Origin: Myxococcota bacterium
GTDB taxonomy: Bacteria > Myxococcota > B64-G9
Length of the DNA stretch: 64,000 bases
Direction of reading: 5' to 3'
NCBI GenBank assembly: GCA_022710975.1
Contig: JAKLGA010000008.1
Coordinates: 248,001-312,000 of the forward strand
Positions 6,899 through 12,050 of the stretch are shown here, piece after piece (within the stretch, counting starts at the first letter, position 1; the number at the start of each line of letters is the position of its first letter). Below the pieces are notes generated by a model. The model ran no database searches. It saw nothing but the letters and a program-made list of their open reading frames with translations, and was not told the DNA's origin. Both the position numbers and the translations under genes were made by a program.

Positions 6899-9800
6899 GT
6901 GAGCGAGCTCATCCCCAGCCAGAACCTCAAGGACCTCGATCCCGTGGTGGCCGACATCATCCGGCGCGAGGCCGAGCGCCAGCGCCGCAAGATCATCCTG
7001 ATCGCCTCGGAGAGCATCTGCCCACCGGCCGTGCGCGAGGCGCTCTCCTGCGAGTTCGGCAACATCTACGCCGAGGGCTACCCCTCGCCGCGCACCTACT
7101 TCGAGCCGGCCCGCAAGCTCTCGAGCTTCCAGCACCAGCTCAGCCACTTCCGGCGCCTGTCGAACCGGCGCTACTACAAGGGCTGCGAGTACGTGGACAT
7201 CCTCGAGTCCACCTGCCGCCGGCGGGCCGCCGAGGCCTTCTCCTGCGAGCGGGTCAAGCCCGAGGAGATCTTCGTCAACGTCCAGCCGCTGTCGGGCGCC
7301 GCGGCCAACAACGCCGTGTACAACGCCTTCGTGAAGCCCGGCGACACGGTCATGGGCGCGGCCCTGAGCCACGGCGGCCACCTGACCCACGGCGCCAGCG
7401 TCAACCGCTCGGGCGCCAACCACAAGGTGGTGGCCTACCAGCTCTCCCACACCGGCAAGCTCGACTACGACGAGATCGAGGCGCTGGCCCTGGAGGCCAA
7501 GCCCAAGCTGCTCATCAGCGGCTTCTCGGCCTACCCCTGGGACGTGGACTGGGCGCGCCTGCGCGTCATCGCGGACAAGGTCAAGGCCATCCTGCTGGCC
7601 GACATCGCCCACCTGGCTGGCATGGTCGCGGCCGGGTTGCTGAACAACCCGCTGGGCCACGCCCACGTGGTGAGCTTCACCACCCACAAGACCCTGTGCG
7701 GCCCGCGCGGCGCGATGCTGATGTGCACCGATCCGTGGGTGGCCGGCAAGCTGGACTTCGGCGTGTTCCCCGGCGAGCAGGGCGGCCCGCACATCCACGC
7801 CCTGGCGGCCAAGGCGGTCGCCATGAAGCTCGCCCGCACCGAGGAGTTCCGCGCCCTGCAGCGCGGGGTGCTGGAGAACTCGAAGGCGCTCGCGGCCGGC
7901 TTCGAGGCCGAGGGCCTGCAGCTCGCCTACGGCGGCACGAACACGCACCTGTGCCTGCTGGATCTGCGCTCCTTCCAGACGCCCAACGGGCTGCCGCTGA
8001 CCGGGGAGATCGCCTCCCGGCTGCTGGATCTGGCGGGCATCACCTGCAACAAGAACACCATCGCCGGCGACGCGAACGCCATCCACCCCTCGGGCCTGCG
8101 CTTCGGCACCACCTGGGCCACCCAGCGCGGCTTCCGCCCGGAGCACATGCGCCGCCTGGCCGGCATCGTGGCCAGGCTGCTCCGCAGCGTGCACCCGTTC
8201 TCCTACATCGGCGGGCGGGTCGAGTGGGGCCGTGGCAAGCTGCCCCAGGCCTCGCTGGAGGAGGCCGCCCGCGAGGTGGACCGGCTGATCGAGGACGCCG
8301 ACCACACCTACTCGGCCGCCGAGCGGGTGAGCGCCTTCCCGCACTTCGTCGGGCCCGAGCGCGGCGCGCGGGCCACCGCCCTGGAGTCCCTGCACAAGAG
8401 CCAGGGCGTCAAGCTCGTCGAGCGCGACGGCTGGCGCGTGCCCGAGCGCTTCGGAGACCCGGCCGCCGAGGCCGAGGCGGTGCGCGGGGGCGCGGCGCTG
8501 GTCGACGCGGGCGGCGCCCTGCTGCTGGAGGTGGGTTCCGGGCACGCGGCCGCGCTCCTGGAGGGCGCCTGCAGCGCCGAGGTGGCCCAGCTCCTGCCGG
8601 GCCGGGTCGCGGCCGGCCTGGTGCTCGACGGCGCGGCCAAGCCGCTGGGCCGGGCGCTCGTCGTCCGGCTCCCGGACGACGAGGACGGCTACGATCGCTT
8701 CTGGGTCAAGATCTCGACCCCCGAGCCCGAGCGCTGCCTGCGCTGGCTGCGCGGCCTGTCCGACGGCTACCTGATGCAGGACGAGGACGTGTGGCTGAAG
8801 ACCGAGGGCCCCGCGGTGGTCGAGGATCTGGCCGACCGCTCGGACGGCGGCGAGCGCCTGGCCTGCCTGGGCCTGCGCGGGCCCAGGGCGGCCGAGGCGC
8901 TGGCCAAGGCCTTCGGCTGCCAGGCGCCCGCGCCCGGCCAGGCGATCCAGCAGGACGGGCTGTGGCTGGTGAGCCGCCCGGCGCCCGCCAGCCCCGGCTT
9001 CGAGGTGTTCGTCCCGGTCGGCCGCGCGGCGGCCACCTGGTCGCGGCTGCTGGAGGCCGGGGCGAAGCCGGTCGGCTGCGCCTCCATGGTCCAGGCGCTC
9101 CCGGGCCCGGCGCTCGAGTCCACGACCGACCTCGGCGCGGCTCCCTGGCGGGACTGGCTCAGGCTGTCCAAGCCCTTCTTCGTCGGTCAGAAGGCGGTGC
9201 GCCGCTCGGGCGCGCAGGCCGAGGCGCGCCCCGCCTTCGAGTGGAAGGCGCCCGAGCTCGCGGAGCCCAGGAAGACCTGCCTGTACCCCGAGCACGAGAA
9301 GCTGTGCAGCGCCAAGCACCTGGTGCCGTTCGCCGGCTACAAGATGCCGGTGATGTACGAGAGCATCCTGGCGGAGCACGAGACGGTGCGCAAGCGCTGT
9401 GGCCTCTTCGACGTGACCCACATGGGCGTGCTGGACGTGCGCGGCCCGTTCGCCGAGCGCTTCCTCGACCTGGTCACCACCAACTACGTGCCCAACCTGG
9501 CCGAGCACCAGGGCCACTACTCCTACCTGCTGGCCCCGGACGGGCGCTGCATCGACGACATCATCATCGGCCGCCTGGGCGGCGACCACTTCATGGTCGT
9601 GGTGAACGCCTCCAACGCCGAGGAGGACGAGGCCTGGCTGCGCGCGGTGTTGGCCGGCCGGGTCCGGCTGGACGACCAGCGTCCAGACGTGCACGCCATG
9701 GGCGAGTGCGTGATCCGCAACCTGCGCGACGTGGCCCAGGCGGGCGAGGACGCCCGGGTGGATCTCGCCCTGCAGGGCCCGAAGGCGCTGGACATCCTGC

Positions 9801-10534
9801 GCGCCCTGGTGGACGGGCCGGCCGGGAAGCTGGCGCTCGAGCGCCTGCGCAAGTTCTTCCTGGCCCGGGTGCGCCTGGCGGGCATGGACGTGATCGCCAC
9901 CCGCACCGGCTACACCGGCTCCGAGGGCTACGAGCTGTACGTGCACCCCGAGCGGGCGCCCAGGCTGTGGGCGGAGCTGCTGACCGCGGGCCAGCCGCAC
10001 GGCCTGGCCCCCTGCGGCCTGGGGGCGCGCGACTCGCTGCGCACCGAGGCCGGCTTCCCCCTGCACGGGCACGAGCTGGCGGGCCCGCACGCCATCCAGC
10101 CGGTCGAGGCGGGCTACGGCGCCTTCGTCAAGCTGCACAAGCCGTTCTTCGCCGGCCGCACGGCCGCGCTCGGCTGGCACCAGAACCGCGACCGGGTGAT
10201 CGTGCGCTACGAGGTGGACGAGAAGGGCGGCAAGGTGCTCCGGCCCGGCAACCCGGTGCTGGACGCCAAGAAGGGCGAGTACGCCGGCTACGTGACCAGC
10301 GCGGCCTCGACGCCCGAGCGGCAGGTGGGCCTGGCGCTGGTGTCCGCCAAGTTCGCCAAGCGCGCCAACAAGCTCCAGATCGTGCCGCTGACCGACCACG
10401 ACAAGACGCCGCCGGCCCGCAGCCCGCTCGAGCTGAAACCCGGCGACTGGGTGGCCGTGCCGCGGCAGGCCACCATCCGCGTCCGCTTCATGCGCCCGAA
10501 CGAGAAGCCGCTCAAGGGCAAGGACGCCCAGTAG
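6899..10534 (+). CDS. glyA: Serine hydroxymethyltransferase fused to glycine-cleavage T-protein domains
   Basis: This 1211-residue fusion joins two folate enzymes of serine/glycine metabolism. Residues 1 to about 480 are a PLP-dependent SHMT (serine plus THF to glycine plus 5,10-methylene-THF), with YKGCEYVD near 90-99 and the PLP lysine in TTHKT at Lys264. Compared with standard GlyA there is an extra segment of roughly 25 residues between AEGYP and RYYKGCEYVD. Residues about 790-1200 are a full T-protein (aminomethyltransferase) with FDVTHMG and the IDD motif. The stretch between (about 490-780) looks like a degenerate second T-protein domain. The start is a GTG with AAGGAG six bases upstream. 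No P- or H-protein gene is in view. It probably forms a transcription unit with thyX. Confidence 0.88.
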   Translation: MSELIPSQNLKDLDPVVADIIRREAERQRRKIILIASESICPPAVREALSCEFGNIYAEGYPSPRTYFEPARKLSSFQHQLSHFRRLSNRRYYKGCEYVDILESTCRRRAAEAFSCERVKPEEIFVNVQPLSGAAANNAVYNAFVKPGDTVMGAALSHGGHLTHGASVNRSGANHKVVAYQLSHTGKLDYDEIEALALEAKPKLLISGFSAYPWDVDWARLRVIADKVKAILLADIAHLAGMVAAGLLNNPLGHAHVVSFTTHKTLCGPRGAMLMCTDPWVAGKLDFGVFPGEQGGPHIHALAAKAVAMKLARTEEFRALQRGVLENSKALAAGFEAEGLQLAYGGTNTHLCLLDLRSFQTPNGLPLTGEIASRLLDLAGITCNKNTIAGDANAIHPSGLRFGTTWATQRGFRPEHMRRLAGIVARLLRSVHPFSYIGGRVEWGRGKLPQASLEEAAREVDRLIEDADHTYSAAERVSAFPHFVGPERGARATALESLHKSQGVKLVERDGWRVPERFGDPAAEAEAVRGGAALVDAGGALLLEVGSGHAAALLEGACSAEVAQLLPGRVAAGLVLDGAAKPLGRALVVRLPDDEDGYDRFWVKISTPEPERCLRWLRGLSDGYLMQDEDVWLKTEGPAVVEDLADRSDGGERLACLGLRGPRAAEALAKAFGCQAPAPGQAIQQDGLWLVSRPAPASPGFEVFVPVGRAAATWSRLLEAGAKPVGCASMVQALPGPALESTTDLGAAPWRDWLRLSKPFFVGQKAVRRSGAQAEARPAFEWKAPELAEPRKTCLYPEHEKLCSAKHLVPFAGYKMPVMYESILAEHETVRKRCGLFDVTHMGVLDVRGPFAERFLDLVTTNYVPNLAEHQGHYSYLLAPDGRCIDDIIIGRLGGDHFMVVVNASNAEEDEAWLRAVLAGRVRLDDQRPDVHAMGECVIRNLRDVAQAGEDARVDLALQGPKALDILRALVDGPAGKLALERLRKFFLARVRLAGMDVIATRTGYTGSEGYELYVHPERAPRLWAELLTAGQPHGLAPCGLGARDSLRTEAGFPLHGHELAGPHAIQPVEAGYGAFVKLHKPFFAGRTAALGWHQNRDRVIVRYEVDEKGGKVLRPGNPVLDAKKGEYAGYVTSAASTPERQVGLALVSAKFAKRANKLQIVPLTDHDKTPPARSPLELKPGDWVAVPRQATIRVRFMRPNEKPLKGKDAQ

Positions 10535-10565
10535 GCCGGGGGCCCGCCCGCGGGAGGGACACACC

Positions 10566-12050
10566 TTGGGCCTGAAGGTCATCCTGGCCGGCCACAACGT
10601 CGATCGCCAGGCGCTCGACCTGCGCCTGGCCGGCGAGCGCGAGGAGGAGGCCGGGGCGCTCTCGCCCGAGACCCTGTCCGCGGCCTACGCCCGCATCAGC
10701 CGCGATCCGCGCAGCGTGGACGTGTTGCGGGCCGAGTCCCGCCGGGAGGTGGACCGGGCCCGGCGCTCGAACCAGAGCATCATCTTCGACATGGGCCACG
10801 CCTCGGTGGCCGAGCACGCCACCTTCAACCTGGACGTGCTGGGCCTCTCCCGGCTGGCGGTCGAGGCGCTCGAGCGCCACCGCCTGGTGTCCTTCACCGA
10901 GAAGAGCCAGCGCTACACCCGCCTGGAGGGCGAGCACGTGGTGCCCCAGGAGCTCCAGGGCGGGCCGCTGGAGGCCGACTTTCGCGCCCGGGTGGAGGCC
11001 CTGGGCGGACTCTACCAGGAGCTCGCCCGGGCGCTCACCGCCGCGGCCGAGGCCCAGGACGGCGGCGGCGCCAGGGGCCGCGCGGCGCGCCGGGCGCTCG
11101 AGTCCCGGGCCAACGAGGACGCCCGCTACGCGCTGCCGCTGTGCGCCGAGGCCCAGCTCGGCATGACCGTCAACGCCCGCAGCCTGGAGCTCATCATCGC
11201 CCGCCTGGCCAGCCACGAGCTGGCCGAGGCCCGCCAGCTCGGCCTGGCGCTGCACGCGGCGGTCGCCCGGGTGGCGCCCTCCGTCATCCGCTACACCCAG
11301 GCCACGGCCTTCAGCCGGGACACCGGCCCGGCGCTGGCCGCCCAGGCGGAGCGGCTGCTGCCGGCCCGCGTGGCGGCCCAGAGCCCGGGCGAGCCGGCCG
11401 TGCGGCTCGCGGGCCACAGCCCCGAGCCCGATCGGGCGGTGGCCACCGCGCTGCTCTTCGCCCACGGCCGGGCCGGGCTCGAGGAGTGCCTCGCCGCCGC
11501 CCGGGCGCTGGACGCGGCCGGGCTGCGGGCGCTGTTCGCCGAGGTCTACGGGCGCATGCAGCCCTGGGACGCGCTGCCGCGGGCCTGGGAGGCGGTGACC
11601 TTCACCTACGAGCTCGTGCTCAGCGCCGCGGCCTATGGGCAGCTCAAGCGCCACCGCATGAGCACCCAGCTCGCGCAGCCCTACGAGCCCGGGCTCGGCC
11701 GCACCATCCCCGAGAGCGTGCGGCGGGCCGGCCTGACCGGGGCGCTCGAGCGCGAGCTCGGCCGCTGCGAGGAGCTGTGGGAGCGCGCCGCGCGCGTGAG
11801 CCCGGCCGCGGCGGCCTACTGCCTGACCAACGCCCACCGCCGACGGGTGCTGGTCGGGCTGAACGGCCGGGCGCTCGGGCACTTCGCCAGGCTGCGCTGC
11901 GACGCCGAGGCCCAGTGGGACATCCGCGCGCTGGCCGGCCAGATGGTGGCGGCGGCCCAGGCCGTCATGCCCTTCGCCGGCGCCTTCTACGGAGGCAAGG
12001 ACTGCGTGGATGCCTTGCGGGTGAATGCCGCGGGCGCCTCCGTCGTCTGA
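10566..12050 (+). CDS. thyX: FAD-dependent thymidylate synthase, double-domain form
   Basis: This protein belongs to the ThyX family, which makes dTMP from dUMP with methylene-THF, FAD and NADPH. The family signature is read in the first half as RHR at residues 104-106 followed by S..E.S.RY. The second half (from about residue 250) is a diverged repeat that keeps RHRMST...PY near residue 362 but lacks the complete motif. At 494 residues it is about twice the length of classical ThyX. The start is TTG at 10566 with GGGAGG about eight bases before it. It begins 31 bases after the SHMT-GcvT fusion, which makes the methylene-THF it consumes, so substrate coupling is likely. Which half is catalytic is inferred. 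Confidence 0.82.
   Translation: MGLKVILAGHNVDRQALDLRLAGEREEEAGALSPETLSAAYARISRDPRSVDVLRAESRREVDRARRSNQSIIFDMGHASVAEHATFNLDVLGLSRLAVEALERHRLVSFTEKSQRYTRLEGEHVVPQELQGGPLEADFRARVEALGGLYQELARALTAAAEAQDGGGARGRAARRALESRANEDARYALPLCAEAQLGMTVNARSLELIIARLASHELAEARQLGLALHAAVARVAPSVIRYTQATAFSRDTGPALAAQAERLLPARVAAQSPGEPAVRLAGHSPEPDRAVATALLFAHGRAGLEECLAAARALDAAGLRALFAEVYGRMQPWDALPRAWEAVTFTYELVLSAAAYGQLKRHRMSTQLAQPYEPGLGRTIPESVRRAGLTGALERELGRCEELWERAARVSPAAAAYCLTNAHRRRVLVGLNGRALGHFARLRCDAEAQWDIRALAGQMVAAAQAVMPFAGAFYGGKDCVDALRVNAAGASVV

Follow-up and report, generated by a model that had tools for sequence, protein, structure and literature searches.

The gene at positions 6899-10534 of the window (the whole 64,000-nucleotide stretch of DNA that was analysed) encodes a chain that is probably a bifunctional glycine-serine enzyme, in which a glycine cleavage T-protein and an SHMT draw on a local THF pool, with a middle domain, termed M, serving as scaffold. 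The architecture, the catalytic residues of the SHMT and T-protein domains, the sole-copy status of the fusion, its association with gcv genes and its single origin are read from sequence; we infer that both activities reside on the one chain, that handover is local and that M has a scaffold role. Of these, a bifunctional T/SHMT is likely, and direct local transfer between the T and SHMT sites is plausible.

The fusion gene is one open frame on the plus strand, with a GTG start, 1211 codons and no internal stops, and its product carries, in order, an SHMT domain (amino acids 1-477), M, which is a degenerate T-protein fold (478-770), and a complete T-protein (788-1203). The features discussed below are as follows.

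6899 to 8329, plus strand: SHMT domain, amino acids 1-477, matched by Pfam SHMT and by NF000586 over its cut-off.
7073 to 7174, plus strand: stretch with the SHMT insert, amino acids 59-92, where the PF00464 match is split.
8330 to 9208, plus strand: middle domain M, amino acids 478-770, from Pfam GCV_T (73.8 bits), AF2 and Foldseek.
8744 to 8827, plus strand: near-constant motif of M, amino acids 616-644, with residues invariant in 25 fusions.
9260 to 10507, plus strand: complete T-protein domain, amino acids 788-1203, matched by GCV_T, NF001567 and TIGR00528.
10566 to 12050, plus strand: ThyX, 494 amino acids, a tandem of two Thy1 (PF02511) domains.

Against Pfam, the whole chain matched SHMT with E=6e-121 and GCV_T with E=2e-93, the latter in two stretches. 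AF2 modelled it with a pLDDT of 86.6 and a pTM of 0.81, and when the full chain was put to a structure search, the top list consisted of SHMTs alone. The claim of the sequence-only reading that SHMT, a degenerate T-like domain and a normal T-protein lie on one chain was borne out by Pfam, NCBIfam and the fold search. Upstream of the fusion, and divergent from it, is a gene for a Cys-rich repeat lipoprotein-like product (3514 to about 6750, minus strand).

When the middle domain was used as query, the fusion was found in 9/9 sampled genomes of the window's family, in frames of 1211-1285 amino acids, and in two further Myxococcota families. Patterns from the same domain, scanned against 84,980 species genomes, gave 226 relatives, 80 of which were kept, and all kept loci long enough to tell were SHMT-M-T chains. 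Full-length orthologues throughout the family sample and in many phyla rule out a chance join or an assembly artefact. A survey of other phyla had been proposed with the initial reading, and the fusion is indeed present in several bacterial groups (Myxococcota/Deltaproteobacteria, Chloroflexota, Aerophobota (Aerophobetes), Planctomycetota, Spirochaetota and Bipolaricaulota (Acetothermia)) and in one archaeal genome, from the Thermoplasmatota. Chloroflexota carriers include many Anaerolineae, such as Ornatilinea apprima and Anaerolinea; the loci come mostly from MAGs, and the O. apprima record is from a named strain. Judged by its spread over phyla, the fusion is ancient. Literal phrase matching in open-access text did not find a fusion with a pseudo-T domain described; the component families are well known, and such proteins are surely in sequence databases under existing names.

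The SHMT domain scored 418 bits against NF000586 (cut-off 335), and its PLP lysine is Lys264, within SFTTHKT. K264, D235, H238, R401, E59 and Y93 did not vary among 12 fusions, which represent three families. By profile and PLP lysine, this domain is a member of the SHMT family, and serine/glycine interconversion is predicted for it. The family, the fold and the catalytic residues Lys264, Asp235, His238 and Arg401 are common to the fusion and GlyA (bsSHMT, 1kkj), but the fusion adds a C-terminal extension into the T-domains and an insert of ~26 amino acids between Glu59 (the E of YAEGYP) and Tyr92 (RRYYKG). This insert, at the position of the substrate/folate loop, is of constant length among the fused SHMTs (67 fusions have a 29-30-residue spacer) and was not seen in stand-alone SHMTs of the same genomes. 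Accordingly, the PF00464 match is broken in two at the insert in every fused SHMT and is continuous in every full-length stand-alone SHMT.

The C-terminal T-domain scored 315 bits against NF001567 (cut-off 300) and 275 bits against TIGR00528 (cut-off 235.85), with its best stretch at residues 791-1153/1160. The functional residues of the T. maritima T-protein (TmT) we take to be Asp96, Asn, Tyr188, Glu195 and Arg227. Catalytic/folate residues are present in the window's T-domain as Asp887, Asn903, Asn906, Tyr1005, Glu1012 and Arg1044, and the catalytic Asp (of the IDD motif) and the Asn, Tyr, Glu and Arg folate residues were kept in all 22 of the fused T-domains compared (22/22). By profile and residues, the domain is a GcvT, and an aminomethyl-H-protein dependent activity is predicted. 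Set against GcvT/AMT (1woo, 3a8k), it lies over curated cut-offs and keeps all the named residues, and M has the same fold; in the fusion, however, the T-protein sits behind SHMT and a degenerate copy of itself.

Gene content indicates which pathway the chain serves. The window's genome has no SHMT and no T-protein other than the fusion, and its gcvH-gcvPA-gcvPB cluster (names by similarity) on contig C1 is missing gcvT. The fusion was the only SHMT in 20/34 genomes checked (among them 6/9 of the window's family and 14/22 of other groups), and 17 of those 22 genomes of other groups had no second GCV_T match over the cut-off; the remaining GCV_T hits comprised frames of 807-884 amino acids (a dimethylglycine-dehydrogenase-type size), a fragment and GcvT-like matches of lower score. 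P-protein was present in 21/22 genomes of other groups and in 11/12 fusion genomes of Myxococcota, and was not detected in fusion genomes G020 (94% complete) and G200. The fusion without P-protein at these two loci (L042 and L079, respectively) may reflect missing sequence, or a T-domain that is otherwise used. Of 77 loci, 18 had gcvH, gcvPA or gcvPB within flanks of ~8 kb of the fusion, for example a gcvPB 18 nt upstream (L127) and gcvH genes 54 nt (L076) and 16 nt (L090) downstream. These 18 loci represent six phyla: Aerophobetes, Planctomycetota, Chloroflexota, a proteobacterial MAG, Spirochaetota and the archaeon. No gcv genes were seen next to the fusion in Myxococcota. Since the fusion is usually the only T-protein and often the only SHMT, its partner would be the glycine cleavage system and not ThyX; as sole copy, both of its activities are presumably needed, and from this gene content we infer that T-protein and SHMT activity must both come from the fusion. 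Clustering of neighbours also placed a SerA-like dehydrogenase, an aminotransferase and DUF1015 at some loci, not uniformly, which is compatible with serine metabolism. Downstream of the fusion in the Spirochaetota loci L111, L116 and L118, DUF1015 (identified in L116) and a SerA-like 2-hydroxyacid dehydrogenase (identified in L118) stand between the fusion and gcv genes. Directly upstream of the fusion, loci L081, L084 and L091, from more than one phylum, encode a conserved protein of ~392-395 amino acids, which had no Pfam or NCBIfam match in the two cases tested (L081, L091).

The product of the T-protein, 5,10-methylene-THF, is the co-substrate of SHMT in the serine direction, so that the two domains form a sequential pair; the earlier description of SHMT and T as two producers is not supported, because a serine-forming SHMT consumes the methylene-THF from T. 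Their pairing would give a closed step with GcvP/H/L, turning 2 glycine into serine + CO2 + NH3, or the reverse. In the mechanism that we propose, the T-domain would take the aminomethyl group from GcvH to form 5,10-methylene-THF, the SHMT domain would combine this with a second glycine to give serine and return THF, and both steps may run backwards in the biosynthetic direction. The fusion would set the stoichiometry and keep the shared THF/methylene-THF pool local, M would be a decayed internal T copy linking both enzymes, its SDGY...D.D...K.EGP loop probably packing on a neighbouring domain, and ThyX would be a local neighbour and one possible user of spare methylene-THF. In plant mitochondria, glycine decarboxylase and SHMT form such a couple, T-protein making and SHMT consuming methylene-THF while THF is recycled. 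The T-to-SHMT chemistry is the same, but the plant partners are separate proteins, whereas in the fusion they form a single chain. The fusion would tie the glycine cleavage system covalently to SHMT in nature, and in several phyla whose members are poorly cultivated it takes the place of a stand-alone gcvT and, in many cases, of glyA as well. Whether T-protein and SHMT pass folate directly to each other, a long-standing question, becomes testable here within one protein, and the fusion could serve designs for glycine/serine C1 assimilation.

The sequence-only reading had instead explained the fusion by ThyX, with SHMT and T both producing methylene-THF that is channelled to ThyX for dTMP, an explanation that we now consider very improbable. 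The gap between fusion and ThyX in the window is exactly 31 nt, as that reading had it, and the ThyX frame begins with TTG, with GGGAGGGA just before it; the grounds for treating the two genes as one unit are their common strand and this spacing. The adjacency recurs in three other genera, all of the window's family. Elsewhere in the family and in families f6 and f12, however, ThyX is on another contig (G004, G013, G026) or is absent, with a ThyA-family gene instead and the fusion still in place (G001, G002, G003, G005, G020); the two thymidylate genes were mutually exclusive among the fusion genomes compared (G000-G008, G013, G020, G026). No ThyX was found nearby among loci outside the window's family, where gcv genes are the recurrent neighbour. 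Because ThyX lies apart from the fusion or is swapped for ThyA in relatives, its proximity is a local arrangement. It does not lie apart in every relative, given the four genera, but adjacency is clearly secondary; the linkage across relatives that a channelling unit would call for was not found, the neighbourhood survey rules out ThyX as a general partner, and ThyX as the reason for the fusion is not supported, nor is production by both enzymes for ThyX outside this small clade.

The ThyX frame itself scored 126 bits against TIGR02170 (cut-off 87.9) and proved to contain two Thy1 domains in tandem (117.6 and 77 bits), a feature absent from the earlier account. The first copy has the RHR...S...RY signature, as RHRLVSFTEKSQRY, and the second lacks it, with an altered RHRMSTQLAQPYEP. 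Tandem frames of 480-560 amino acids with a diverged second copy were also found in the other ThyX-bearing genomes of family f1 and in f6, in contrast to the solved ThyX chains that were matched, which are single-domain proteins of 216-258 amino acids.

The role of M bears on how the two enzymes are joined. Positions 8327-9244 alone matched GCV_T in Pfam with E=1.7e-20 and 73.8 bits (cut-off 25.6). AF2 modelled M alone with a pLDDT of 90.9 and a pTM of 0.88, and Foldseek with this model returned E. coli, B. subtilis and T. maritima T-protein as the best matches (E=2e-19), followed by dimethylglycine oxidase and sarcosine oxidase (including 1vrq_C and 2gag_C). M is thus a degenerate folate-binding fold of T-protein, without the C-terminal barrel. 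With GCV_T the sole Pfam match and the fold search in agreement, an origin of M in another family is ruled out. The initial description of a T-protein-like domain without clear motifs stands for the Myxococcota lineage, in which catalytic/folate residues are lost: the position of TmT Asp96 (the Asp of IDD) is Arg585 in the window's M, and the Asn, Tyr188 and Arg227 positions are also altered, so that any function of this M would be that of a T-like domain without catalysis. Among 25 aligned M copies, the Asp96 equivalent is kept in 13, making a folate role possible in those lineages, and the Arg227 equivalent in 8. Some copies from Aerophobota, where M is near complete (GCV_T 171.7 bits), keep equivalents of Asp-Asp, Tyr188, Glu195 and Arg227, and in most Anaerolineae the M region is cut to ~150-190 amino acids, with most of the fold deleted and the motif still there. 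Taken together, these copies show a pseudo-enzyme domain at successive stages of decay, with one non-catalytic motif retained.

This motif, WLRxxSDGYxxxDxDxxxKxEGP, is near-constant in M of all lineages (WLRGLSDGY..D.D...K.EGPAVVEDL in the window), with W616, R618, D622, G623, D630, K634, G637 and P638 invariant in 25 fusions. Since the two scan patterns were taken from the motif, its invariance is partly selected, and each half was therefore cross-checked in loci found through the other. The first half was kept in 11/11 loci found through the second pattern only, and the GP of the second half in nearly all of 54 loci found through the first pattern only; the motif is also present in the family genomes retrieved by whole-domain search. 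These checks argue against conservation as a mere scan artefact. The motif loop had a pLDDT of ~63 in M alone vs ~88-90 in the full chain, and the models suggest that it contacts a neighbouring domain.

The possibility that the fusion serves merely for co-expression or a fixed ratio, without local transfer, M being a decaying spacer, is unlikely: M does evolve fast (its mean column identity is 50%, whereas SHMT has 72% and T 69%), and Chloroflexota have a shortened version, but its near-constant motif and well-predicted fold indicate that parts of it are under strong selection. That M binds (polyglutamyl-)THF and passes THF between the T and SHMT sites would suit its T-protein fold and the residues partly kept in Aerophobota, but is quite improbable in view of their loss in Myxococcota, the deletion of most of the fold in Anaerolineae and the non-catalytic nature of what is kept. 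A more elaborate version, in which the fusion is a one-chain glycine-to-serine synthase and the catalytically dead duplicated T-domain a dedicated module for folate handover or gating between the T and SHMT sites, with the SHMT insert and the motif loop as transfer interface, is likewise doubtful. M is probably a structural scaffold, with folate handover possible, and we judge the scaffold role more likely than that of a folate shuttle.

An active and a reduced T-fold are also paired in heterotetrameric sarcosine oxidase, whose SoxA has the active T-fold domain and SoxG is the second, reduced T-fold unit. The pairing is alike, and the C chains noted above are of this enzyme, but there the second T unit forms a subunit of its own within a flavoenzyme, whereas in the fusion it shares a single chain with SHMT and with a GCS T-protein. 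In an unrooted tree, M (100/100), the fused T (96/90) and the free T (100/99) each formed a single clade, which argues for a single origin and joint inheritance. An insert before LALQGP is common to M and the fused T and is missing from the free T-proteins compared; M is therefore most likely a duplicate of the T-domain made inside the fusion lineage, an order of events proposed with the tree unrooted. Two fusion genes lie ~9 kb apart on one contig in G205 (L092).
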